Below, in pieces: positions 5,327 through 33,863 of a DNA stretch of 33,863 bases (position 1 is its first letter; each line of letters begins with the position of its first letter). The stretch comes from an uncultured Rhodospirillales bacterium (GTDB taxonomy: Bacteria; Pseudomonadota; Alphaproteobacteria; Azospirillales; Azospirillaceae): assembly GCA_903931735.1 (NCBI GenBank), contig CAIZDL010000196.1, forward strand, positions 1 to 33,863, in the 5' to 3' direction. A model generated the notes under the pieces. That model saw only the letters and a list, made by a program, of their open reading frames with translations, did no database searches and was not told where the DNA came from. The position numbers were made by a program, and so were the translations under genes.

Positions 5327-5929
5327 ATGCCTGAAACGATTCCAGTCCAAACCGATCTGACCGACGACCAGATGGCGTTGGTCCAGGAGAACATGGCGTT
5401 GGCCCATTTCATGGCCAACCGGACGATGGACCTGGACCCGCACCAAGCCCTGTCTGTGGCCATGGGCGGGCTGATCCGGGGCGTCCAGACCTTCGACCCC
5501 ACGAGGGTCTGCTCCACCGGCAAACTGGCCACGCTGGGCGGGCACATGGCTCGCTGCATCCGCTGGGCGTTGTCTCGGGAGCGGATGAAGCTGCGATCCG
5601 TGACCCGTGGCGGCTGGCAGATTTTCGTGAGTCTGGACGAGTCAATGGGGGATGATCGAACGCTGCTGGGATCGACTCCCGATGATACCGCGGTCAATCC
5701 AGCCGACGAGCTTTCAACCCGAGACCTGCACGCCATGATCCGGGGGTTGCTGCCTGAACTCACCGATCGGCAACGCTTCGTGATCGAGCGGCGCTTCGGG
5801 CTGAACGGGCACCGTGCCATGCTGGGAGAGGAAGTGGGGCAGCTTTTGGGTGTCACCCACCAGCGGGTCCAGCAGATCGAAAAGGAGGCCGTGACCCTGC
5901 TGGGCCGCCGGCTGCCGAAGGAAGTCTGA
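5327..5929 (+). CDS. Phage-encoded sigma-70-family RNA polymerase sigma factor
   Basis: 200 aa. Residues about 20-90 resemble sigma region 2 (NMALAHFMANRTMDLDPHQA, then a GLIRGVQTFDPTR segment like the GLxxAxxxFDP of region 2). Residues 144-197 are region 4: LTDRQRFVIERRFGLNG followed by the helix-turn-helix EEVGQLLGVTHQRVQQIEKE. Region 3 is reduced to a short linker. It should bind host core polymerase and direct it to phage promoters, most simply those of the late genes. It lies between the two terminase genes behind a terminator-like leader. The first codons share the TGCCTGAAAC sequence with the large terminase gene. Confidence 0.88.
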   Translation: MPETIPVQTDLTDDQMALVQENMALAHFMANRTMDLDPHQALSVAMGGLIRGVQTFDPTRVCSTGKLATLGGHMARCIRWALSRERMKLRSVTRGGWQIFVSLDESMGDDRTLLGSTPDDTAVNPADELSTRDLHAMIRGLLPELTDRQRFVIERRFGLNGHRAMLGEEVGQLLGVTHQRVQQIEKEAVTLLGRRLPKEV

Positions 5930-6110: not shown

Positions 6111-6184
6111 TTACCGCTTGACGCCCGGCCATGCCGTTGCATTGTGGCCACAGACGTTCGCAGCGAGGCCTGAGGGTAGCTGCC

Positions 6185-6226
6185 GATCCCCGGAGGATTT
6201 CACCCTCCGGGGATCGCAATCTTTTC
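6185..6226 (+). terminator. 12-bp hairpin in the large terminase leader
   Basis: GATCCCCGGAGG (6185-6196) and CCTCCGGGGATC (6204-6215) are perfectly complementary around ATTTCAC and followed by GCAATCTTTTCC, seven bases before the GTG start. It could terminate or attenuate transcription into the terminase gene. The T-tract is short, so read-through is likely. Confidence 0.5.
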
Positions 6227-6232
6227 CAACCC

Positions 6233-7705
6233 GTGCCTGAAACCATCGACATTGAATCCGGTCCCGCCCGTTCGTTCGCACCCTCCTCGAACGGCCTGAC
6301 CCTGTGGGAGTTCTTCTCTGAGGCGTTCGTCCCCTTGCAGGGGCTTTCGATCCCGCTGAAGCCGGCGCACCAGGAGATTTGCAACGTCATCGAGGACTCC
6401 TTGATGTGCAACCTGTCCTACGAGTTCGTGGTCCTGAATGTGGCTCCGCGCTTCGGCAAGACCAAGATTTGCGAAGCGTCGATCCTGTGGTTCGAGGGGC
6501 TGCTGCCGGACGCGCAGTTCATCTACACCGTCTATTCGGCCGCCATGGCCATCGAGACCAGCCGCTATATCCAGACCGTGATGCGGATGCCTTGGTATCT
6601 GCAACTCTTCCCCGAGTGCCGGCTGGGCGACGTGCAGAAGGCCGAACAGTTCAAGACCACGCGCGGCGGCCAGCTTTACGCCGACGGCGTGGGCGGTTCG
6701 CTGACGGGACGCGGCGCCGGGATGAAAGATCGGCCAGGCGGGGCGATCTTCGGCGACGATTGCTCGAAACCCGACGAGGCGCAGTCCCAGATCGAAATCG
6801 AGAAACTGCACCACTGGTTCGAGAACACGCTGAAGTCGCGGCGCAACTCCTCCGACAAGTGCCCCATGATCTTCCCCCAGCAACGGCTCGGGCCGGATGA
6901 CATGTCCGGGTATCTGATTTCCAACTACCCGAACAAAACCCTGCACCTGAAGTTCCCGGCGATGGTGAACGGTTTCTCCGTCCTCCCTGAGACGGTCAGC
7001 ACGTCCTCGCTGGAAGATACGAAGCGGAACAATCCCTTCGTCTTCGCCAGCCAATACATGCAGGAGCCGATCATCATGGGCGGCAACATGATTAAGCCCG
7101 AGTGGTTCGGCTATTTCGATCCCGACGAGCCGCTGCTGTTCGAGTGGCGCATGGTCACGACCGACACGGCTTGGAAGACGAAGGAGGCCAACGACTGGTC
7201 AGTCTTCCAATGCTGGGGCAAGCTGAACGCCAAAATCTACCTGATTGACCAGGTGCGGGGGAAATGGCTCTCCCCGATGATGATCGCCACGGCACGGTCG
7301 TTCTGGGATGGCCACAAGACCAACGACACGAGGCAGGGCTGGCTGCGGAAGATGGTGATCGAGGACCACAGCAGCGGCACCTCGGCGATCCAGCAGCTTG
7401 CCAACGAGGGCATTCCCATCGAGCCGATCATCCGCATCAAGGACAAGGTAACGCGGGTCGAGGACATTCTGCCCATGATCGCCACGGGGCGGGTCATGCT
7501 GCCCAAGGGCCGGCCGTGGCTGTCCGATTTCCTCTCCGAGTGCGCCGCCTTCCGCAAGGACGGCAATCACAAGCACGATGACATGGTTGACCCCCTCGCC
7601 GACGCCGCCCGGTTGATGCTGGGCGAGTCTTTGTCCTGCTTCGATGTCATGCGCCCTCCGGGCGATCCGATGCTGCCAAAGGCGATCCGGGGTCGGTCTC
7701 GGTGA
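6233..7705 (+). CDS. terL: Terminase large subunit (ATPase and nuclease)
   Basis: 490 aa from GTG 6233 (MPETIDIESG); the longer upstream frame runs through a hairpin. Residues 71-77 APRFGKT are a Walker A variant as found in the Terminase_6 family, residues 171-176 AIFGDD the Walker B. The nuclease domain starts near 305 with TTDTAWKT (Asp311) and ends with the metal-binding HKHDDMVD (448-453); IEDHSSG near 376 is the middle acidic motif. It packages DNA into proheads. The last 59 bases overlap, antisense, the end of the DUF6378 gene. Confidence 0.93.
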   Translation: MPETIDIESGPARSFAPSSNGLTLWEFFSEAFVPLQGLSIPLKPAHQEICNVIEDSLMCNLSYEFVVLNVAPRFGKTKICEASILWFEGLLPDAQFIYTVYSAAMAIETSRYIQTVMRMPWYLQLFPECRLGDVQKAEQFKTTRGGQLYADGVGGSLTGRGAGMKDRPGGAIFGDDCSKPDEAQSQIEIEKLHHWFENTLKSRRNSSDKCPMIFPQQRLGPDDMSGYLISNYPNKTLHLKFPAMVNGFSVLPETVSTSSLEDTKRNNPFVFASQYMQEPIIMGGNMIKPEWFGYFDPDEPLLFEWRMVTTDTAWKTKEANDWSVFQCWGKLNAKIYLIDQVRGKWLSPMMIATARSFWDGHKTNDTRQGWLRKMVIEDHSSGTSAIQQLANEGIPIEPIIRIKDKVTRVEDILPMIATGRVMLPKGRPWLSDFLSECAAFRKDGNHKHDDMVDPLADAARLMLGESLSCFDVMRPPGDPMLPKAIRGRSR

Positions 7706-7958
7706 GTTTTTCCATCGCTCGGGCGTAACCGGCGATGTCCACCAGATTGTCCCGCGAATGGTGGTTGCACTCGCGGGAAACCTTAAGGAGCACCATGCAG
7801 AGCCCGACCTGCTGCGGCGTGACCTCGATGTCGAGCACCTGCGACCAGAGCGCGGCGATCCGCTCGAAGCTACGGTTGGGCGGGCCGTAGGAATTCTCCC
7901 GAGGACCGTCAACCAGTCGGGATGCCTCTTCGAGAATAGTTTCAAGGTGCGCGCTCAT
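7647..7958 (-). CDS. DUF6378-type phage protein
   Basis: 103 aa from ATG 7958-7956. The sequence from EASRLVDGPRENSYGPPNRS through FERIAALWSQVL to VGLCMVLLKVSRECNHHSRD and NLVDIAGYARAMEKL fits DUF6378, a widespread phage family of unknown function. The start overlaps the upstream stop by 17 bases. It is the last gene of the minus-strand accessory cassette and its 3' end converges with and overlaps the large terminase gene. Confidence 0.8.
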   Translation of the reverse strand: MSAHLETILEEASRLVDGPRENSYGPPNRSFERIAALWSQVLDIEVTPQQVGLCMVLLKVSRECNHHSRDNLVDIAGYARAMEKLTETDPGSPLAASDRPEGA

Positions 7959-8220
7959 TTTGTTCGGGGACGATGGCTTCAACGAGTTTCTGCTTCCGGG
8001 TCGCGATCTTGCTGCGCCGGGCCAGGTCGATCATCAGGTTGTCGGCCAGCGTCTTGATCTTGGGCATGAACTCCTGCACGAGAAAGCCTTCGATCTGAAG
8101 ATCGGCGAGTCGCTTCCCCGACTCGGGATCGGTGGCATCGAACAGCCGTTTGTCCGGCGCGGCGAAGTCAGCCTTCAGTTTGAACGAGGAGCCTTCGATG
8201 GTGATGGAGATGGTTGTCAT
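7942..8220 (-). CDS. Hypothetical phage protein, 92 aa
   Basis: ATG at 8220-8218 overlaps the stop of the small membrane protein gene as ATGA. The N terminus MTTISITIEGSSFKLKADFA is beta-rich; the C-terminal half is helical and basic (LARRSKIATRKQKLVEAIVP). Not recognised. Coupled on both sides within the accessory cassette. Confidence 0.65.
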   Translation of the reverse strand: MTTISITIEGSSFKLKADFAAPDKRLFDATDPESGKRLADLQIEGFLVQEFMPKIKTLADNLMIDLARRSKIATRKQKLVEAIVPEQNERAP

Positions 8221-8372
8221 TTTAGTTTTTCAGTTCCCCTGATTTTTCTGACGATTACGAGTAGCCCTTTTCCACAAATCCAAACACCTCCGAAGAAAGC
8301 AAGTCCGCCCGCGAAAATTAGCATCGTCTCCCAAAAACCGACTCCTGGAATTTCGCGCAGTTCAGGGTTCAT
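8217..8372 (-). CDS. Small membrane protein, 51 aa
   Basis: ATG at 8372-8370 and TGA at 8219-8217, both in ATGA overlaps with the neighbours. A polar N terminus (MNPELREIPGVGFWE) is followed by a hydrophobic, Gly-rich stretch from TMLIFAGGLAFFGG to GLLVIV and a basic end RKIRGTEKLK. It could form one long or two short membrane helices with the basic end in the cytoplasm. A holin-like function is conceivable, but its place in a glycosyltransferase cassette suggests otherwise. Confidence 0.6.
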   Translation of the reverse strand: MNPELREIPGVGFWETMLIFAGGLAFFGGVWICGKGLLVIVRKIRGTEKLK

Positions 8373-8836
8373 GCTGGAAAGCGTTTGTCGAAACGGGCGA
8401 GATCGGCGTCAGCGAGTTCACAGGCTTTTTCGGAGCCGTTGTAATTTTTACGAACAGCGTTCCCCGATTCCCAAACGGTTGTGTGGACAGCGTTGTGGAA
8501 GTCGAAGCGTTCGATCCAATAGTTCGCCCGGACTTCGATCAGGATGGGGTTCGGTTTGGGTTCGGGCGTAGCCTGCGCGACGGGTTCGACCGAAGCGGGG
8601 CTTTCTTCAGGAAAGATTTCCTCGCGTTCGACGCTTCCGTCAACATTCACGGCTGTCCCGTTCGTGTCCACTATCCAACAGTGGTCGAACTCCTTTCGAT
8701 GGTTGGCTCCGTTCGGCATCAAACTAGTCAAACGCTGACGAGCATTGTCGATACTCAGGTGTGGGCCATCGTTCAAGAAGCCGTTGGAAATCCAGAAAGG
8801 AAGCGTGGCGGGGACTTTGATTCTTTTGATGTTCAT
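8369..8836 (-). CDS. Hypothetical protein, 155 aa
   Basis: ATG at 8836-8834, three bases after the upstream glycosyltransferase stop. Two parts: an N-terminal domain up to about residue 70 (PATLPFWISNGFLNDGPHLS, WIVDTNGTAVNVDG), a Pro/Glu/Ala linker (PEESPASVEPVAQATPEPKP) and a C-terminal part with WIERFDFHNAVHTTVWESGN. The C-terminal part resembles no family I can name. Member of the coupled accessory cassette. Confidence 0.65.
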   Translation of the reverse strand: MNIKRIKVPATLPFWISNGFLNDGPHLSIDNARQRLTSLMPNGANHRKEFDHCWIVDTNGTAVNVDGSVEREEIFPEESPASVEPVAQATPEPKPNPILIEVRANYWIERFDFHNAVHTTVWESGNAVRKNYNGSEKACELADADLARFDKRFPA

Positions 8837-8839
8837 GGT

Positions 8840-9556
8840 TCAAATTCCAAATTTCAGCAGTTCACGGATCGCAGCCTGCTCGGCGTTCACCGCGGCGAAG
8901 TTGCGCGGCCCGTCGCTGTCATAGTGTCGGCGGTAGGCTTGCAGGATTTGCGGGCAGTTGCCGAGGCGCAGCCCGGCACGCACCATCTCGACGGACATCA
9001 TCCAATCGTTCGCGAATTTGAACTGGTTTCGGAACTTCACGCCGGAGGCGATCAACTTGCGGAGATCGAACATCAGCGTTGGCGCGTGCATAGCCCATCG
9101 GGCTGGCAGTTGTGCCACAATATCGGCGTGCAGATACGAATGGTATTCAGGCGGGTCTCGCCGAAAGTTGAGCGTCCCAATGTCGTGCCAGAATGGGGCA
9201 AACGCACCCGAGACACACGCCAGTTCGGGCTCCAACTCGAACGCCTTCAGTTGGTTCGCGATGCGGTCGGGGCAGGCAATGTCGTCGCTGTGCTGGATCG
9301 CGAGGTAGTCGTATTCCTCGCCGTGGTCGCGAACCCAGGCGTCGAGACGGGTGCACGGGTGCGCTCGGTGCTCAATTACGTTTATTCCGCCAACCAGATG
9401 CTCGGCGATTTCCTTAGTCCAGTCAGTCGAACCGCCATCAAGAACCCACATCTCGCGATGCCCCGATTGCTCTTGGATGCTGTCAATCGCTTCACCCAGA
9501 TACCGGGCAGAGTTGAATGTTGGGATGACGACGGCGACGGAGGGAGGGTTATTCAT
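8840..9556 (-). CDS. Family 2-type glycosyltransferase (GT-A fold)
   Basis: 238 aa from ATG 9556-9554 (MNNPPSVAVVIPTFNSARYL); the frame is open a little further up but this start puts the Rossmann strand at the N terminus as usual. VVIPTFN (9-15), DGGSTD (40-45) and HSDD (89-92, the DxD equivalent) are the nucleotide-sugar and metal-binding motifs; ANDW (182-185) lies where the catalytic base motif is expected. It should transfer a sugar from a nucleotide donor; the acceptor is unknown and may be host envelope glycan or a virion protein. No membrane segment is seen. Confidence 0.85.
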   Translation of the reverse strand: MNNPPSVAVVIPTFNSARYLGEAIDSIQEQSGHREMWVLDGGSTDWTKEIAEHLVGGINVIEHRAHPCTRLDAWVRDHGEEYDYLAIQHSDDIACPDRIANQLKAFELEPELACVSGAFAPFWHDIGTLNFRRDPPEYHSYLHADIVAQLPARWAMHAPTLMFDLRKLIASGVKFRNQFKFANDWMMSVEMVRAGLRLGNCPQILQAYRRHYDSDGPRNFAAVNAEQAAIRELLKFGI

Positions 9557-9749
9557 CGACGCGAAGATAAGGTGGACCGAAATTGACGACACAGTTTGCC
9601 CCGCGCCCGTTGGTTGAATCGGCGTAAGCCAAGGCGATTTCTTTCGGCTTGATTGTGGCCACAGTGATCGCGGCAGGCGGTGTCAATTTAGCCGTCTTTC
9701 CGATGACGATCAGACCGCCCAAGGTTTGCAGGAAATTTCTTCGGTTCAT
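9549..9749 (-). CDS. 66-aa protein with Tat-like signal sequence
   Basis: ATG at 9749-9747 overlaps the upstream stop (ATGA), which fixes the start. The N terminus MNRRNFLQTLGGLIVIG matches the twin-arginine signal pattern (RRxFLxxL, then a weakly hydrophobic stretch), with a possible cleavage region near TPPAAITVA. The remaining about 40 residues (IKPKEIALAYADSTNGRG, one Cys, NFGPPYLRVDE) match nothing known to me. Export by the Tat route is inferred. Very unusual for a phage gene; it lies between two glycosyltransferase genes. Confidence 0.6.
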   Translation of the reverse strand: MNRRNFLQTLGGLIVIGKTAKLTPPAAITVATIKPKEIALAYADSTNGRGANCVVNFGPPYLRVDE

Positions 9750-11107
9750 GGCCGGTTCCCCCGCAGTTGCAGCGCGTCGTAGCGCATCATGTGCCCGACC
9801 TTGACCGTCGTGTCCACATAGACAATGCCGCCCATGTCCCTCCACATCCGGTCCACGGTGTAGTCCTCGCTGTCCCGGTGCCGGTCAACCACCTGATCGT
9901 GGAAGATGAAGTTGACGGCATGACCCCGGAACTCCTCCACCGTCTCGTCGTATTCGGTTTGTGGATTCTCCGCGATGATCGCGTCGAAAACATCGAGGTC
10001 GTAGAACTTGAACCCGGTGCCGATCTCGGCACATTCCTGCAATCCGTTCGACATCGTGCCTTTGCCGGGGATGGGAGTGAAGCACCAGTCGAACGGGGGT
10101 TTCTTTTTCGGGTAGAGCGCGCCGACGACGGGAGCTTGATGCCGGGCCATCTTCAACAACTGTTCGAGGTTGAAGATCATGTCGTAGTCGATGAACCCGA
10201 TCCTGCCTGCCTGCTTCCCGTCCACGACCAGATTGCGGGCCTTGTAAAGCAGCAGGTCGCGCATCCGAGGGGTCTGCGTGCCGCCGCCGTCGAGCTTGAC
10301 GAACCGGGTCTGGCCGGCCTTGTTCGCCGCCTCGAACAGCGCGAAGAGGGAGGCGTTGAAAGTTTCGACGTGAGCCATCCCCTCGTAGTTGGGCATCGCC
10401 AGCACGACGAGGTTGGGATCGCGCTTGGACAGGCGTTTGATCCGGCGATAGGTCGTGGTCGGGCCGTGGTAGCTGCCGTCGGCCGAGACCTTTTTCAGCA
10501 TCAGCCTCGCGATGGGGATTTTGGTGAACTCGTTGTGGCCGAGGAAATGGCACAGCCAATCGCCACACTTCCACCGTGCCTCGTTGTCGCCACCGGGACT
10601 CGCGTTCATGTCGCGGGGCATCGCCAGCGTGATCTTTTTCGCGAAGTCAGGTTCGCCCTGCATGACGTTCCAAAGGTGATTCTGCCAAATCCAAGCGTAG
10701 TCCCGCCAGACCGGTTCGTCCGCAATCATGCGGTCGATCACGGCCATCGACGCCGGATCGTTCCACCAGATTCCAACATCGTTGTTGATGGGCCAATCGG
10801 TGTGGGATTCGCGAGCGAACATGACCCCGACCCGATGGTTGGCTTTCTGCGCCACTTGTTGCGGCGTGATCGACTGATTCATCATCAACACATCCGAGCC
10901 GTGCGTCAGCACCATGTCGAATTGTGGCAGAAGTTTTTTGAGGGCGACAAGAAATCCCAGCTTCGACGGCTCCCAATCCATGCGGAGCGTCTGCTGGCTG
11001 AACCCGTGCCGCTGCGCGTAGGCCAGATGGTTCGGCGCGGTGATTCGGGCCAACTCCAAATTGAGCGGGTTGGTGACACTGTGACAGGTGAGCAGGCAAA
11101 TGTTCAT
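9746..11107 (-). CDS. Two-domain glycosyltransferase
   Basis: 453 aa, ATG 11107-11105 in an ATGA overlap. The N-terminal domain (about 1-225) starts MNICLLTCHS and has HLAYAQRHGF and THGSDVLMMN (69-77), the layout of GMA12/MNN10-like galactosyltransferases. The C-terminal domain (about 230-450) starts DPNLVVLAMPNYEGMAHVET and has the metal-binding IDYDMIF (306-312), ALYPKKK (330-336) and a His-rich part near FIFHDQVVDRHRD, typical of GT-A enzymes found in phages. Two catalytic domains on one chain suggest addition of a disaccharide or of sugars to two acceptors. Family labels are by resemblance only. Confidence 0.75.
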   Translation of the reverse strand: MNICLLTCHSVTNPLNLELARITAPNHLAYAQRHGFSQQTLRMDWEPSKLGFLVALKKLLPQFDMVLTHGSDVLMMNQSITPQQVAQKANHRVGVMFARESHTDWPINNDVGIWWNDPASMAVIDRMIADEPVWRDYAWIWQNHLWNVMQGEPDFAKKITLAMPRDMNASPGGDNEARWKCGDWLCHFLGHNEFTKIPIARLMLKKVSADGSYHGPTTTYRRIKRLSKRDPNLVVLAMPNYEGMAHVETFNASLFALFEAANKAGQTRFVKLDGGGTQTPRMRDLLLYKARNLVVDGKQAGRIGFIDYDMIFNLEQLLKMARHQAPVVGALYPKKKPPFDWCFTPIPGKGTMSNGLQECAEIGTGFKFYDLDVFDAIIAENPQTEYDETVEEFRGHAVNFIFHDQVVDRHRDSEDYTVDRMWRDMGGIVYVDTTVKVGHMMRYDALQLRGNRP

Positions 11108-11256
11108 GGGAGAGTGGCGATGATTCGGGACAACACCTCACGCTGCGCCAGCTTCGATTTCCGGGCGTGATCTGCCAGCCGTTTCATCTCAGCGTCGGTC
11201 AGGCGGAAGCAGCGGTTCTTTTTGCGCTCGGAGGAAGTGAGTTTGCGACGGGGCAC
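11104..11256 (-). CDS. Ribbon-helix-helix-like small protein, candidate cassette regulator
   Basis: 50 aa from GTG 11256-11254; TTG at 11286 or 11292 would add up to 12 residues. The strand-like NRCFRLTDAEMKRLADHARK followed by SKLAQREVLSRII has the shape of MobC/CopG-type ribbon-helix-helix domains (RxxRLTxxExxxLxxxAxxxGxSxSxxLR). It is the first gene of the accessory cassette and would be well placed to control it, possibly by binding in the divergent region before the portal gene. Stop overlaps the next ATG (ATGA). Confidence 0.6.
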   Translation of the reverse strand: MPRRKLTSSERKKNRCFRLTDAEMKRLADHARKSKLAQREVLSRIIATLP

Positions 11257-12917: not shown

Positions 12918-13873
12918 AGACCCTTCTCGGTCCCATCCTCCACCGCGACGAATACACCCGCTGGATCGAGCGGGAGGCGAACGGTTGGCTCGACGAGGCA
13001 GTCTTCGCTCCGCTGGACGCCGCGATGGAAGACGAGCGTCTGAATGAAAATGACAATTCCTTCGTCGCCGCCGCGCTGATCGCCGGGACAATCTGGTATG
13101 CGGCCGGGGTTTTCGGCGGCGAGTTTGATTCCAAGATCAGTCGTGAACTACGAATGTTCGGAGCCACGCTGGCCGCTGACGGCACCTTCCGGCTTCCCGA
13201 TTGGAAACTGACAATCCCCCTGCGCTCGGCCATCGCCTACGCCTCGCACCGTTCGCGCTACGCCCACGGCGGCGTCGTCACCATCGCCGACACGATTCTC
13301 GACAACGTGAAAAAGGCCGTGCTCGGGATCGGGGCGGCTTTGATCTTTCTTCGCATCCTGAGCGATCTCGAAATCCAATCGCGGCTGGCTCTCGACCATC
13401 GCACCGAGTTGCCTGTGGCCATCGGCAAGCCCGTTTCCTCGGCGGCGCAGGAGCGGGAGTTCGACGACCGCCTGAAAAAAATCACGGCGGACGCGCTCGA
13501 AGACTTGAAAAAAAAAGTCGCCGACAATCTCGCGGACGGCGGACGACCTGACAAGCTGAAGGCCATCGTGGCGGCTTGGAAAACGAAACTGCGCTCCCGA
13601 ATCGCCACCGAGGCCGAGCACCAGGCGGCCATTGTGGTCACGGCCCATCGCCGGGAACTGGCACGGCGGCTGGGAATTTCCGAATACATCTGGCAGACGA
13701 TGGAGGACTCGAAGGTGCGGAAGTGCCATCGTTTGTTGAATGGTAAAACATTCAACTGGGACAACCCTCCGGTCATTGACGACCGCACCGGCTTTCGGGG
13801 GAATCCAGGGGACAGCGCCAACTGTCGGTGCCATCCGCGTTTGATTCTTACGGAGGCGGAAAGAGCCGCATGA
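12914..13873 (+). CDS. Phage head morphogenesis protein (MuF / SPP1 gp7-like)
   Basis: 319 aa, start fixed by ATGA overlap with portal. The N-terminal two thirds are helical (long Lys/Asp-rich helices near DDRLKKITADALEDLKKKVA). The C-terminal MuF signature is clear: DSKVRKCHRLLNGKTFNWDN, then a GF-NPGDSANCRCHPRLIL end, the conserved CxC-H motif. Minor head protein associated with portal, ejected or needed for prohead assembly. Confidence 0.88.
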   Translation: MKTLLGPILHRDEYTRWIEREANGWLDEAVFAPLDAAMEDERLNENDNSFVAAALIAGTIWYAAGVFGGEFDSKISRELRMFGATLAADGTFRLPDWKLTIPLRSAIAYASHRSRYAHGGVVTIADTILDNVKKAVLGIGAALIFLRILSDLEIQSRLALDHRTELPVAIGKPVSSAAQEREFDDRLKKITADALEDLKKKVADNLADGGRPDKLKAIVAAWKTKLRSRIATEAEHQAAIVVTAHRRELARRLGISEYIWQTMEDSKVRKCHRLLNGKTFNWDNPPVIDDRTGFRGNPGDSANCRCHPRLILTEAERAA

Positions 13874-14058
13874 ACCAGATGCAAACACTTTCTTTGCTGC
13901 CCACTCCGGCCCTGCGGGAACGGCTGAATTCGCTCGTGCAGGAACGGGAGTCAATAATTTCTAAAAAAAGACGCTTGACAGATGCCGAGGAACAGGCCAA
14001 ACGTGCAATCAGTAGGGTGGAATCAGAGATCGCCCAGCGTGCGATTCGGGTTCCATGA
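13870..14058 (+). CDS. Coiled-coil hypothetical protein, 62 aa
   Basis: ATG 13870 in an ATGA overlap. Mostly one charged helix (LRERLNSLVQERESIISKKR, then DAEEQAKRAISRVESEIAQR). Its TGA again overlaps an ATG (14055) in the frame of the next gene, but that frame has a TAA after five codons. Could be a small scaffold or chaperone; unproven. Confidence 0.6.
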   Translation: MNQMQTLSLLPTPALRERLNSLVQERESIISKKRRLTDAEEQAKRAISRVESEIAQRAIRVP

Positions 14059-14072
14059 CGCGACCTTTCTAA

Positions 14073-15056
14073 ACGACTCCTGAATCCCTCGCCCTCTCCG
14101 TCATCGACGCCAAAGCCCAACCCATCACGGTTGGAGATGAGGTCGTCAACGGCAAAGAATTCTGTCGCCGGTTCGCGGCGAAGTTCATTCAGCCAGGTCT
14201 GGTGAAGTTCAAGATCAAGGGTCGCGAGATCGTTTCCCTGTTGCGGAAAGAAACCATCGAGAACGCGCTCGGTTCCATGATGGGCTCGAAGGTTCGCGTT
14301 GGCCACAAGGACGCCACCGAGCACGGCAGCGTTTCGGAAGTCGGTCGCGATTCCGATTCCGGCTGGTTCGAGTGCAAAGGTCTCGTCGAGACCGAGGCCG
14401 CGCAGCAGGCGATCAAGTCCGGCCAGCGCGTGTCCTGCGCCTATCGCGTGAACTCCACGGCTCAGGGCGGCACGCTGAACAACGTCCCCTACGACGAAGA
14501 GATCACCGGCATTTCCTTCACCCATCTTGCCATCGTCGGCATCGACGATGCGCGCTACGAGGACGCCACCATCGTTCTGAATTCCAAATCATCCGACACC
14601 ACCATGAACAAAGCAATCCGCTGGATCAAGAAAACCCTCGTCGGCGACAAGCCGGTCGTGGAAACGGGCGACATCCCCGCCGACGACACGCGCATGAATT
14701 CGCTGGTCGAGAAATACCGGGCCAAGCACAAAAAGCCGGAACCCATCGCCGAGCGGTTCGTCGAGATCGACGGCACGCAGGTTCCCATGGCGGAACTCGA
14801 AGCCCTCGAAATCGAGAACGCGAAGCCGACCGAAACCGACGCCGAGAAGGCGACCCGGTTGCAGGCCGAGGAAACCGAACGCCTCAACGCCAAGCGCAAC
14901 GGCTACAACGAATTTCTCAAGGTTGCCGGCGCCAAGGCGCGCGGCCAATCCGAGGCCACCGATGACGTGGAGTTCATCTCCCCCGACACGATGGACATCA
15001 AAATCCAGCGCGGGCATCGGGAGTTCGGACAGAAACACCTCGCGGGCAAAAACTAA
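14073..15056 (+). CDS. Prohead protease/scaffold-type protein (DUF2213-like), start unclear
   Basis: The frame codes convincingly from about 14073: SLALSVIDAKAQPITVGDEV, then EFCRRFAAKFIQPGLVKFKI and SKVRVGHKD, matching the N-terminal layout of DUF2213-type proteins, whose core continues with AIKSGQRVSCAYRVN and the SFTHLAIVGIDDARYEDA end. Downstream is an acidic, helical scaffold-like part. The coupled ATG at 14055 is in this frame but is followed by TAA at 14070-14072. The first canonical start after the TAA is CTG 14199 or GTG 14202, which would remove about 42 residues of good coding sequence. Read-through, a non-canonical start or a nonsense mutation are all possible. Confidence 0.75.
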   Translation, partial: TTPESLALSVIDAKAQPITVGDEVVNGKEFCRRFAAKFIQPGLVKFKIKGREIVSLLRKETIENALGSMMGSKVRVGHKDATEHGSVSEVGRDSDSGWFECKGLVETEAAQQAIKSGQRVSCAYRVNSTAQGGTLNNVPYDEEITGISFTHLAIVGIDDARYEDATIVLNSKSSDTTMNKAIRWIKKTLVGDKPVVETGDIPADDTRMNSLVEKYRAKHKKPEPIAERFVEIDGTQVPMAELEALEIENAKPTETDAEKATRLQAEETERLNAKRNGYNEFLKVAGAKARGQSEATDDVEFISPDTMDIKIQRGHREFGQKHLAGKN

Positions 15057-29673: not shown

Positions 29674-32600
29674 ATGAACATCCTTCGCAAACTCATCCTC
29701 TTGGCCAGTGTCACACTCGGCCTTCACGCGAACGCGCAGACGCCAACCAACGTACAGAAGACGACGGGAAGCAACGTCATCACGGCTCCGGTTGTCGTCG
29801 GCACGCCGAGCGCGACGATCACCACGGGTGGCATCCTCTCGCTGCAAGGCGGGACGTTTTCCTTTTCGTCGGGCACGTTCACCGGAAGCACGCCGTTCAT
29901 TCCGGCCGCGCTCATCGTTGGCTACGACGGCGGAACGGTGACGAGCGTTACTTTCTCCGTTGGCACAACGGGGTTTACCGGGACATTCGCCAACCCGACC
30001 ACAACGCCGAGCATGACCCTTGGAGGGACGCTCACTTATTCTAACGGCGGGACGGGAACCAGCAGCGCGCTCACCGGATTCTTGTTCGCCAACGGTGGCG
30101 CGTATTCGGCTACTACCAGCATCCCCAGCGGGTCGCTCTCGGGCGTCTTCACCCTCGCAGGCCCAAACACCGCGACCGGCAGCAACGCATTTTTGGGCGC
30201 GAACACGTTCAGCGGGCCGTTGACGGTCAACACCGTGAGCAACATGATTTTCGTGGATCAGGGCAGCGGGCACGACACGGGCACGCTGGCGGGCGTCATC
30301 GGCCAGCCGAATCTACCGTTCAAGACCGTGAGCGCGGCCTTTGCGGTGGCGACTTCTGGAAGCACGATCTACCTTCGCGGGAATTACACCTACACGACGG
30401 GCTCGACGCTGACCTTTCCGAGCGGCGGCAATGTGACACTGAAGGGCGACAGGCAGTTTACGACCACGATTACAAGAGGCGTGAACGTCAACGCGTTCTT
30501 GCTCACCAATGCAAACAACACCACGACGACCAGCGGAAAGGACTCCAATATCACGATTCAGGATTTGACCATCGACGGCAACGGCGCGAACCAAAGCGGG
30601 ACGTGGGGCGGCATCAACCAGACGGCTTTTTTTCAGGGCGTGGATAATCTCAGGATTGAGCGGGTCCAATTCGCCGGAGCGAAGGGGTTCAACTTCCAAG
30701 CGGCGAACTGCAACAGCGGATTCGCCAGCCAGATTTCCTATGCAGAGGCTGACAACGGGCAAGCGAACCGGGACGGCCTGCATTTCAACTCCTGCCACTA
30801 CTGGGTAATTTCCAACAGCGTCGGCGGAACCTACGACGATCAGATCGCTGTCATCGGCGACGAATACGGTTACACCCCGACAATCGCTACTGGCTCGACC
30901 TCGGACATGATCGTTATGGGCGTCATCGGCACAGGCAACACAGGCACGAATAACGTGGGTAGCGGGGTGCGAGTGGACGGCAACAGCGCAGGGGCGTATC
31001 GGATTTCGGTTTCTGGCATCACCGGGCTTTTCGCACGCGGCGGGTTGGTGGTGGATAGCACTTACACGACGGCGAGCGTGATTGAGGGGTTGGTTGTTAA
31101 TGGCGTCGATGTCATCCTTCCTGCTGGGGCGACACGCGGAGCCATCGACATTTCGAGCACGGTTTCGTCCATGACGATCTACTCAGGAAACAACACGAAC
31201 GCCGTCAGCAACGGAGGATCAGTGACGACCTGGATCCAACCTTCAACCTTCACTGGCATGACCGGATGGGTCACTGACCTGACGATGATCGGCGGCCAGT
31301 TCTGGGGCAGCACGACAACCGCGAGCTACATCGGGAACGCGGATTTGGTTTTGCTCAATGGCGGGGGTGTGACGAGAGGGAAGATTATCGGGGCGACGAT
31401 GCATGATTCGAGCAACGCGCACACGGCGGGCGCGATCCTTTACACCCTGACCGGAAGTTACGGCGTCATCACACTGGAAAACTGCACGACGGAAAATATG
31501 GATCAGATGGTCAACATCCTGAGCGATCCGGGCGCGGATGCCGTCCTCAACATCTTCAACAGCCAGCAGACGGGAGCCAGCAGTGGAACGCATTCCATGG
31601 TGCAAATCGCGGCGAGCACCAATGGGCGGACGATCAACGTCCTCAACGACACCACAGACGGCGTTGCAGGGCTCGTCTCTGGCGGCGGGGGCTTCAGCTA
31701 CACGCCCGGCCTATTCGGATTCAACACCGGCCCGCAGATCGGCACCGGACTGGCCGAGTGGCAGGTTGGCGGGAGCAACGAAGTTTTCAACTCAGCGGTG
31801 ACGGAAAGCCGTGTCCTGTTCGGCGCGGTGACTGGAACGACATCGGGGACGTTTTCCATCGGCCTTGACTCGGCTCTTGGCGGCGCGTCCGGCGCGGAGT
31901 TTTTCATCAAAGACCTGAAGAACGCCAAGACGCTGGTTTCGATCACGTCATCGACGACCTCGAATGGGGCCAATTTCGACTTCACTGGCACAGGGCACTT
32001 TCACAACAACTTCCTGATCGACAACGGCGGCACGTTCACAGACACGCTCGGGCAGGTCATCACGGGCTCGATTTCAGCCACCACCCTCAACGGCCTGACC
32101 CTCAGCGGCAGCGGCGGCATGAACCTCGGCACGGGCACGCTCTCGCTGGCGAGCGGCACGGCGACGCTGGCGGCTGGGCAGGAAGTGACGACGTTCACCA
32201 GTAGCGGCAACGACATTACGCTTACCCAAAGCGGCGCGACCTTGACCATCGCAAGCACCGTGACCCAAGGAACCGGCATCACCGCCACGGTCGGCACCGG
32301 AACGCTCGCGGGAACCGTGACCATCGCAACCACGATCACGCAGGCATCCCAGCTCGCAACCGTGACCTCCACGACCGGCCTGACGGGCAGCACCAATGGG
32401 ACGACGCTCACCATCAACTCGCCGATCACCCTCGCTGGCACCGGCACGTTCACCATGACGACCAGCACGACGTTGACCGGCGGGGGCACGATTTCCTTGG
32501 GCGGGTTTACCACGACCATCGACGCTTCAGGCCATCCGGCGTTTCGGGATTTGGCGAATACGTTTACGGCGGCGCAGACGATCAGCCTGTCCGGCGCGGG

Positions 32601-33863
32601 ACCGGCGTTGACGCTCTCCAGCAGCGGGACGGCGTTGAGCATTACCAGCGGCACGCTCTCAGCGGCGGCGATCTTGGCGAGCACGGTTTCAACATCGGGT
32701 GCAGTCACAGTAACTGGCCTGCTGACGACCGGCTCGACTTCGCAAGGAGCCGTTGTCGCCACGAGCCTTTCGACGAGCGGGCAACTAGTTTCGGCATCCG
32801 CTAGCACAGGGCTGACGACGGCAACCACGCTGACGGCCTCCACGGTTTCGACTTCGGGCAATGCGACCATCAGCGGCACGCTTCAGAGCGGGGCGATTAC
32901 AGGGACGACGGTTTCGCTGTCGGGGGCGGAAACGGTGAGCGGGTTGCTGACGACGCAGACGATTGCCGGGCCGCAGGGCGCGGCGACCATCAGCGGGGTT
33001 TTGAATGCAGGCAATAACTCGACCATCACTTTCTTGATGCCGACAGTGACTTCCGGGGCCAATATCGCGCTGACGGGCACGGTGTCCACCGGCGCGGTTC
33101 AATTCGTGGTCACAAACTCCAGTTCCGGAGCATATGCCGGGGCCGGGTTCAATGCCTTTAACAACCTCGGTCGCTTGGGACAGTTCGTGAAGGAGGGAGG
33201 AAGTTACGCCGGCTACAAAATTTTCGGCGCAAACGCATCAGGTTTTTACAACGATGGGAATGGAGGCAACCTCGCGCTGCTCAATGACTCTGCCGCGAGC
33301 ATTGTGATGGCCACGAACGGAAGTTCGACGGCTCAGTGGACATTGGCCAGCACGGGGGCGATCACCAGCACCGGGAGCTATACCGTCAACGGGGCTTTCA
33401 CAGCCACCGGCGCAGGCACGATCAGTGCCAGTTTCACCGCCAGCAGTTCCGTCCTCTTCCCTGGCCTATCTCAGACCGGCGCGGTGGAGTTCGTCGGCGA
33501 ATCCAGCGCGGCCAGCGGCAACATCGTGGGCCTCACCACCGCCGCCGCCGCTACGTTGCTCGGCATCTCCAGTCGAACGGTCAAGCACGACATCGCCGAC
33601 TTCGACGGGGACGCCCTCGATATCGTCAACCAGATCGACATCCGCCGATTCCACTACAACGCCGACAGCGGCACCGGCTACGATCCAACCGTCTGGCACT
33701 ACGGGCCGATTGCGGAGGAAATGGCCCTTGTCTTCCCGGACGCTGTTTCAGGCACGCCTCCGTCCATCGACGAAAAGGACCAGATCGCACTCGACACTAA
33801 GGCCATCCAACAGTTGAGCGAACGGCAGACTGCCTTGACTCAACCCGACTGGATCGCACGCGG
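29674..33863 (+). CDS. Giant tail fibre/spike: signal peptide, beta-helix, Ser/Thr/Gly repeats, S74 chaperone (3' end cut off)
   Basis: ATG 29674 after TTTTTCACC; open through the right edge, at least 1396 aa. The first 22 residues (MNILRKLILLASVTLGLHAN, AQ) look like a Sec signal peptide with an ANA-Q cleavage site, unusual for a virion protein. From about residue 192 (IFVDQGSGHDTGTLAG, PFKTVSAAFAVATSGSTIYL) a right-handed beta-helix of pectate-lyase type follows. Residues about 790-1130 are Thr/Ser/Gly-rich repeats. From about residue 1298 (SSRTVKHDIADFDGDALDIV, then WHYGPIAEEMALVFPDAV) lies a peptidase S74 intramolecular chaperone, which normally trimerises the fibre and cuts itself off. 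It should bind or degrade a host surface glycan. No stop was found when each line was read in frame. Confidence 0.85.
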   Translation, partial: MNILRKLILLASVTLGLHANAQTPTNVQKTTGSNVITAPVVVGTPSATITTGGILSLQGGTFSFSSGTFTGSTPFIPAALIVGYDGGTVTSVTFSVGTTGFTGTFANPTTTPSMTLGGTLTYSNGGTGTSSALTGFLFANGGAYSATTSIPSGSLSGVFTLAGPNTATGSNAFLGANTFSGPLTVNTVSNMIFVDQGSGHDTGTLAGVIGQPNLPFKTVSAAFAVATSGSTIYLRGNYTYTTGSTLTFPSGGNVTLKGDRQFTTTITRGVNVNAFLLTNANNTTTTSGKDSNITIQDLTIDGNGANQSGTWGGINQTAFFQGVDNLRIERVQFAGAKGFNFQAANCNSGFASQISYAEADNGQANRDGLHFNSCHYWVISNSVGGTYDDQIAVIGDEYGYTPTIATGSTSDMIVMGVIGTGNTGTNNVGSGVRVDGNSAGAYRISVSGITGLFARGGLVVDSTYTTASVIEGLVVNGVDVILPAGATRGAIDISSTVSSMTIYSGNNTNAVSNGGSVTTWIQPSTFTGMTGWVTDLTMIGGQFWGSTTTASYIGNADLVLLNGGGVTRGKIIGATMHDSSNAHTAGAILYTLTGSYGVITLENCTTENMDQMVNILSDPGADAVLNIFNSQQTGASSGTHSMVQIAASTNGRTINVLNDTTDGVAGLVSGGGGFSYTPGLFGFNTGPQIGTGLAEWQVGGSNEVFNSAVTESRVLFGAVTGTTSGTFSIGLDSALGGASGAEFFIKDLKNAKTLVSITSSTTSNGANFDFTGTGHFHNNFLIDNGGTFTDTLGQVITGSISATTLNGLTLSGSGGMNLGTGTLSLASGTATLAAGQEVTTFTSSGNDITLTQSGATLTIASTVTQGTGITATVGTGTLAGTVTIATTITQASQLATVTSTTGLTGSTNGTTLTINSPITLAGTGTFTMTTSTTLTGGGTISLGGFTTTIDASGHPAFRDLANTFTAAQTISLSGAGPALTLSSSGTALSITSGTLSAAAILASTVSTSGAVTVTGLLTTGSTSQGAVVATSLSTSGQLVSASASTGLTTATTLTASTVSTSGNATISGTLQSGAITGTTVSLSGAETVSGLLTTQTIAGPQGAATISGVLNAGNNSTITFLMPTVTSGANIALTGTVSTGAVQFVVTNSSSGAYAGAGFNAFNNLGRLGQFVKEGGSYAGYKIFGANASGFYNDGNGGNLALLNDSAASIVMATNGSSTAQWTLASTGAITSTGSYTVNGAFTATGAGTISASFTASSSVLFPGLSQTGAVEFVGESSAASGNIVGLTTAAAATLLGISSRTVKHDIADFDGDALDIVNQIDIRRFHYNADSGTGYDPTVWHYGPIAEEMALVFPDAVSGTPPSIDEKDQIALDTKAIQQLSERQTALTQPDWIAR
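32040..33060 (+). repeat. Low-complexity Thr/Ser/Gly/Val repeat region of the tail fibre
   Basis: Degenerate units such as LSTSGQLVSASASTGLTTAT and STSGNATISGTLQSGAITGT recur with threonine-rich beta-strand periodicity. This is the expected shaft of a trimeric fibre. Copy number may vary between strains. Confidence 0.6.

Follow-up and report, generated by a model that had tools for sequence, protein, structure and literature searches.

The gene for the head-maturation protease of a tailed phage, found in a genome assembly of an uncultured Rhodospirillales bacterium, has at its likely start an ATG that overlaps the stop codon of the preceding gene and is followed after five codons by an in-frame TAA (Table 1). 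We favor, with moderate confidence, the explanation that this ATG is the genuine start of the gene and that the TAA is a nonsense codon, either a recent mutation or an error in the consensus, that lies in an unconserved and disordered leader and is not programmed.

The stretch of DNA analyzed here, to which we refer as the window (C196:1-33863; 33,863 nucleotides), belongs to a 3.48-Mb genome that is split over 291 contigs, and its G+C content is 0.59 compared to 0.55-0.63 in the eight readable contigs of ten sampled. The window contains a tailed-phage structural module, as indicated by family matches to terminase, portal, head morphogenesis and head maturation protease, and by further matches to head protein, major head protein, sheath, tape measure and baseplate. 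Judged by the family matches of its neighbors, the protease gene sits between the head-morphogenesis gene and the gene for the major capsid protein. The order of genes is that of gp45-gp50 of Bdellovibrio phage phi1422 (NC_019525), i.e. portal, head morphogenesis, protease, small protein and major capsid protein, with 38% identity for the portal and 42% for the capsid protein. Phi1422 differs from the window in having an extra gene (gp46) between portal and head morphogenesis, in having no small gene before the protease, and in that its protease has its own ATG close to the core. We note that elsewhere in the window a sigma-70 region 4 protein is encoded directly 5′ of the large terminase gene (5327-5929), that the beginning of the terminase ORF looks non-coding (6131-6211; −8.9 over codons 2-9), so that its true start may lie downstream, that a block of minus-strand genes, whose products include a family 2 glycosyltransferase as well as a DUF6378 protein, separates terminase from portal (7647-11107), and that a long tail protein, whose C terminus carries a Peptidase_S74 (endosialidase chaperone) domain, begins at 29674 and continues past the end of the window at 33863.

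Table 1 Features of the protease start region, in positions of the window.
Feature	Position	Strand	Remarks
Alternative frame for a +1 shift	14039..14083	+	GTG 14039 to TCC TGA; shift would enter at GAA 14082
Small coiled-coil-like gene	13870..14058	+	Between head-morphogenesis gene and protease; its TGA (14056-14058) overlaps ATG 14055
ATG, most likely natural protease start	14055..14057	+	ATGA overlap; CC at -2/-1; start junction as in relatives
In-frame TAA, codon 6	14070..14072	+	Read from the sequence
N-terminal leader after TAA, residues 1-27	14073..14153	+	Mostly disordered in the model; unconserved
Head-maturation protease open frame (DUF2213, phrog_530), 327 aa	14073..15056	+	Ends at TAA 15054-15056
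GTG, first ATG/GTG/TTG past TAA, residue 44	14202..14204	+	Inside core
His78 codon	14304..14306	+	Invariant in alignment of 39 sequences; candidate catalytic residue
Ser121 codon	14433..14435	+	At least 90% conserved in alignment of 39 sequences; candidate catalytic residue
His151 codon	14523..14525	+	Invariant in alignment of 39 sequences; candidate catalytic residue

From ATG 14055 the protease frame reads M-T-R-P-F and then TAA, after which it stays open to the end of the gene. There is no ATG, GTG or TTG in this frame over the 43 codons from 14073 to GTG 14202, a gap that has a probability of 0.09 when these three codons occur at 5.4%, as they do within 23 other genes. A preliminary description of this DNA had reported the overlap with the previous stop, the early TAA and the absence of start codons for about 130 bases, and all three hold. 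The only standard start before the protease core is ATG 14055, and this is closed by TAA 14070. Like 12 of the 25 assigned starts in the window, ATG 14055 is preceded by CC at −2/−1 (C at −1 is found in 18 of the 25), compared to 35 of 379 other plus-strand ATGs. Pairing with the anti-Shine-Dalgarno sequence is at background level at both 14055 and 14202 (−3.1 each; random median −2.8), and does not exceed background at most starts in the window.

The preliminary description also held that the frame codes well immediately after the TAA, which is correct from about 14082 but does not extend to the codons directly following the ATG. Using a codon model trained on 24 other genes of the window, we found that the protease frame beginning at 14082 has log-odds of 7.6 over 14 codons, a score reached by 0.05% of wrong-frame null windows, and of 14.8 over 25 codons, a score reached by none. 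The eight sense codons between 14058 and 14084 (with the TAA skipped) score −4.3, the null median being −4.5, and over codons 2-9 just one of the 24 other genes scores below the early codons of the protease gene. A coding map placed the best-scoring start of the protease coding stretch at 14082, to within a few codons; the first codon model, on which the map is based, was trained with a wrong-strand ORF (9767-11167) that was left out of later scoring. By impression from the coding map, the window has no second gene that is split.

The protein encoded by the open frame is a DUF2213-like protease, as the preliminary description had proposed, since it matches PF09979 (DUF2213) with 23.6 bits, above the curated cut-off of 22. 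It also matches phrog_530 (E 1.7e-8), and it resembles the proteases of these families in the place of its gene and in its conserved His78, Ser121 and His151, which form a candidate triad for which we take the Ser-His-His triad of assemblin to be the model. The early in-frame TAA and the lack of a usable standard start before the core set it apart from them. Likeness to the capsid maturation proteases of herpesviruses, which are of the assemblin type, is at the level of the fold: all 23 Foldseek matches with E up to 0.001 were herpesvirus proteases; the lowest E is 3.5e-5, and the TM-scores, taken by query length, are low (0.23 to 0.28). In the AlphaFold model (39 sequences; mean pLDDT 75.6, pTM 0.50), 24 of the 27 residues that directly follow the TAA fall in segments with pLDDT below 50, and the confident core begins at about residue 31, with strands at 32-39, 42-48 and onward. 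According to the model, initiation at GTG 14202 would remove strand 32-39 and cut into strand 42-48. An N-terminal profile aligns from residue 24 on, leaving the leader outside; with it the candidate starts score 30.6 to 31.4 bits and are not separable, whereas a start at GTG 14202 drops to 9.4. Counted by eye, the leader from ATG 14055 to the first profile-aligned residue is 29 residues long compared to about 10-25 in 19 relatives, among which both its length and its sequence differ. As modeled, the leader is probably dispensable to the protein.

Protease-only searches uncovered distant relatives only, at six viral loci, where 3 to 10 residues separate the protease start from the first residue that aligns. 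Such searches gave no match in a first scan of genome contigs, in plasmids, in 82 genomes of the family (the same 82 served for the order; the genome of origin excepted) or in phages at E 1e-5, and a single other match at E 1e-3 in 398 genomes drawn from the phylum; when E was allowed to reach 10, phages gave 82 weak matches, the best of which (7e-4) was to Acetobacter phage phiAO1. The capsid protein found phi1422 and one weak match in the family, and nothing in a second scan of genome contigs. Scans with the sheath protein and with the portal protein singly found no relatives, and a degenerate pattern for the N-terminal peptide had no match in viral contigs. The useful relatives came from viral contigs (IMG/VR) scanned with capsid and portal alignments that included proteins of the window and of phi1422, the scans listing the best 80 of 107 and the best 80 of at least 489 matches. 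In this way we obtained at least 159 viral loci (L041 to L199), 105 of the 159 encoding a related protease, and we scored the protease start at 96 of these 105, leaving out four near a contig end and five with a late match. No copy of the same phage was found among the relatives searched, and none of the papers listed in a literature search dealt with the early stop or the start of this protease gene.

The preliminary description had called for a comparison with relatives, and in those that lack the small gene the start junction looks as it does at ATG 14055. Specifically, of the relatives aligned at the N-terminus, the 14 close ones that have no small gene (L132, L161, L123, L126, L041, L043, L044, L049, L121, L133, L134, L130, L122 and L048, of which L161/L123 and L041/L043/L044 are near-identical) all have a protease ATG or GTG that overlaps the upstream stop, through ATGA or GTGA in 11, the type seen at ATG 14055 (ATGA), and through an 8-base overlap in three. 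For L130 we took GTG 6550 as the start in place of a doubtful TTG picked by the start rule. Outside the 14 are L154 (8-base overlap), L152 (no overlap), exact duplicates, and L112, L052, L163 and L193, in which the start rule found no overlapping start. The N-termini of L041, L043 and L044 align with that of the window without gaps (MSTxLExTPET-like compared to MTRPF-stop-TTPES), a similarity that is suggestive only (shuffle p 0.06 over 12 positions and 0.08 over 18). At codon 6, where the window has its TAA, 7 of 18 distinct N-termini have Glu, two have Asp and one has Gln in what is a weak alignment; CAA, put forward in the preliminary description as an example of the codon from which the TAA arose, is thus unsupported, Glu being the commonest residue.

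These findings suggest the following course of events. ATG 14055 would be the translationally coupled start of the protease gene, and the TAA would have taken the place of a sense codon in the disordered and unconserved N-terminal leader, having arisen either as a real recent mutation in this copy of the phage or prophage or as an error in the assembly consensus. Standard decoding of the gene as written would give a five-residue peptide only and, since a restart at GTG 14202 would cut into the core, the gene in this form probably has little or no activity. We favor a nonsense codon because of the synteny of the start, the CC-ATG context, the variable and disordered leader and the Glu at codon 6 of relatives, and because we found no evidence of read-through or of a suppressor and noticed no second split gene; from this we infer that the stop is recent and not programmed. 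Of the three options that the preliminary description had offered, a nonsense change is the best supported, a non-canonical start is less likely, and programmed read-through is unsupported. Several observations nevertheless count against a nonsense codon: the similarity at the N-terminus is suggestive only and the profile falls short of the leader, the region from ATG 14055 to 14084 looks non-coding and the leader is longish, and at each of the eight scored small-gene loci the protease has neither ATG nor GTG. Moreover, a lesion in so tolerable a place is equally expected of a functional phage that uses another start.

A functional restart is for this reason a serious rival, although we consider it unlikely. 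Ribosomes that had translated the five-codon ORF would restart at a non-AUG codon between 14073 and about 14160 (e.g. ATC 14103 or ATC 14124), giving a protease with a shorter leader. The poor scores of the early codons, the longish leader and the small-gene lineages without ATG or GTG are what give this possibility its weight, and both the disorder of the leader in the AlphaFold model and the short distance from start to first aligned residue in the six distant relatives are consistent with it. The codons on offer are less so, as those from the TAA to 14103 include neither TTG nor CTG and are all weaker. Nor does the background-level anti-Shine-Dalgarno pairing described above help, which covers the starts at 14055 and 14202 only.

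The small coiled-coil-like gene between head morphogenesis and protease is present in only some of these phages. We built a profile of the small gene from the window and from the ORFs in the same place in L051, L137, L142, L145 and L148, which match it by construction; the profile also finds near-identical copies in L138, L143 and L147, and it finds L144 independently but weakly (E 2.4e-4). At all eight of the scored small-gene loci (L051, L137, L138, L142, L143, L145, L147 and L148) the protease lacks an ATG or GTG, compared to 4 of 88 other scored loci, one further locus (L091) that was startless by script having been recounted by eye as ATG-bearing because of an in-frame ATG near the estimated core codon. 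Fisher tests on this association overstate it because of dependence among the loci: the pairs L137/L138, L142/L143 and L145/L147 are each near-identical, and a single contig supplies both L055 and L188. L144, the weaker match, which lies near a contig end, has an in-frame protease ATG. In L145 (6946), L147 and L148 (5577) the stretch from the in-frame stop upstream to the core is free of ATG, GTG and TTG alike, and the CTG of these three loci aligns with the TTG of L137 and L142. Over the eight codons that precede the TGA of the small gene, L137 and L142 differ from L145 and L148 (four pairings, between two related groups) by 2-3 nonsynonymous changes in the protease frame and by 5-6 in the small-gene frame. 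This conservation indicates that translation in these four loci is probably already in the protease frame at that point, from TTG or CTG, and on the sequence evidence the proteases of the small-gene lineages most simply start at one of these two codons. All eight of these loci are thus like the window in having the small gene directly 5′ of a protease without an ATG or GTG start, and unlike it in that a TTG or CTG occupies the start position, with no stop between this codon and the core. It is conceivable, though we think it quite unlikely, that the small-gene branch deliberately starts its protease without AUG or GUG (at TTG, at CTG or by restart past a five-codon ORF closed by TAA), thereby keeping the level of the head protease low, and that the window, its normal start shut by a stop codon, is the extreme form of this arrangement.

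A +1 frameshift, programmed or accidental, could also bring ribosomes into the protease frame, in this case from GTG 14039 by a slip at TCC-TGA (14078-14083). This idea is attractive because the region from the ATG to 14084 looks non-coding while the alternative frame looks mildly coding over 14057-14080 (+2.4; 95% null limit 1.0), and the best-scoring beginning of the protease coding stretch, 14082, is where the shift would enter; over 13 codons from 14042 the alternative frame scores just −0.4, with 5.9% of null windows as high. The TGA of the small ORF likewise gives a +1 entry into the protease frame in L137, L138, L142, L143, L145, L147, L148 and L051. We nevertheless consider a shift at TCC-TGA highly unlikely, because the protease frame, and not that of the small gene, is conserved before the TGA in L137/L142 compared to L145/L148, because a TTG or CTG start is simpler, and because the small gene of the window is in the wrong (third) frame, ending at 14056. 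In addition, the codon before the TGA varies between loci (AAC, TAC, AGT, TCC), leaving no conserved shift codon, and an N-terminal test was not in favor (p 0.33-0.35). Programmed read-through of the TAA to give full-length protease is extremely improbable: the frame is indeed the same on both sides, but TAA is an ordinary terminator here that ends 7 of 22 other window genes counted as well as the protease gene itself, a stop-reading anticodon is absent from all 35 tRNA genes found in the genome (ARAGORN found no tRNA in the window), and the fold of 14060-14200 is unremarkable (z −1.2; 19 of 200 shuffles as stable). In the 19 relatives displayed, whose starts were chosen from open frames only, unsystematic inspection showed no short ATG-to-stop frame directly 5′ of the protease and in its frame.

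Should the protease indeed be translated from a non-AUG codon, the window would be a natural example of the dosing of an assembly protease through a crippled start. Under the nonsense reading that we favor it serves instead as a caution: where a coupled start has an early in-frame stop beside it, the simplest explanation is a nonsense allele or an error in the consensus, and gene finders demanding a standard start would place that of this protease within its core.
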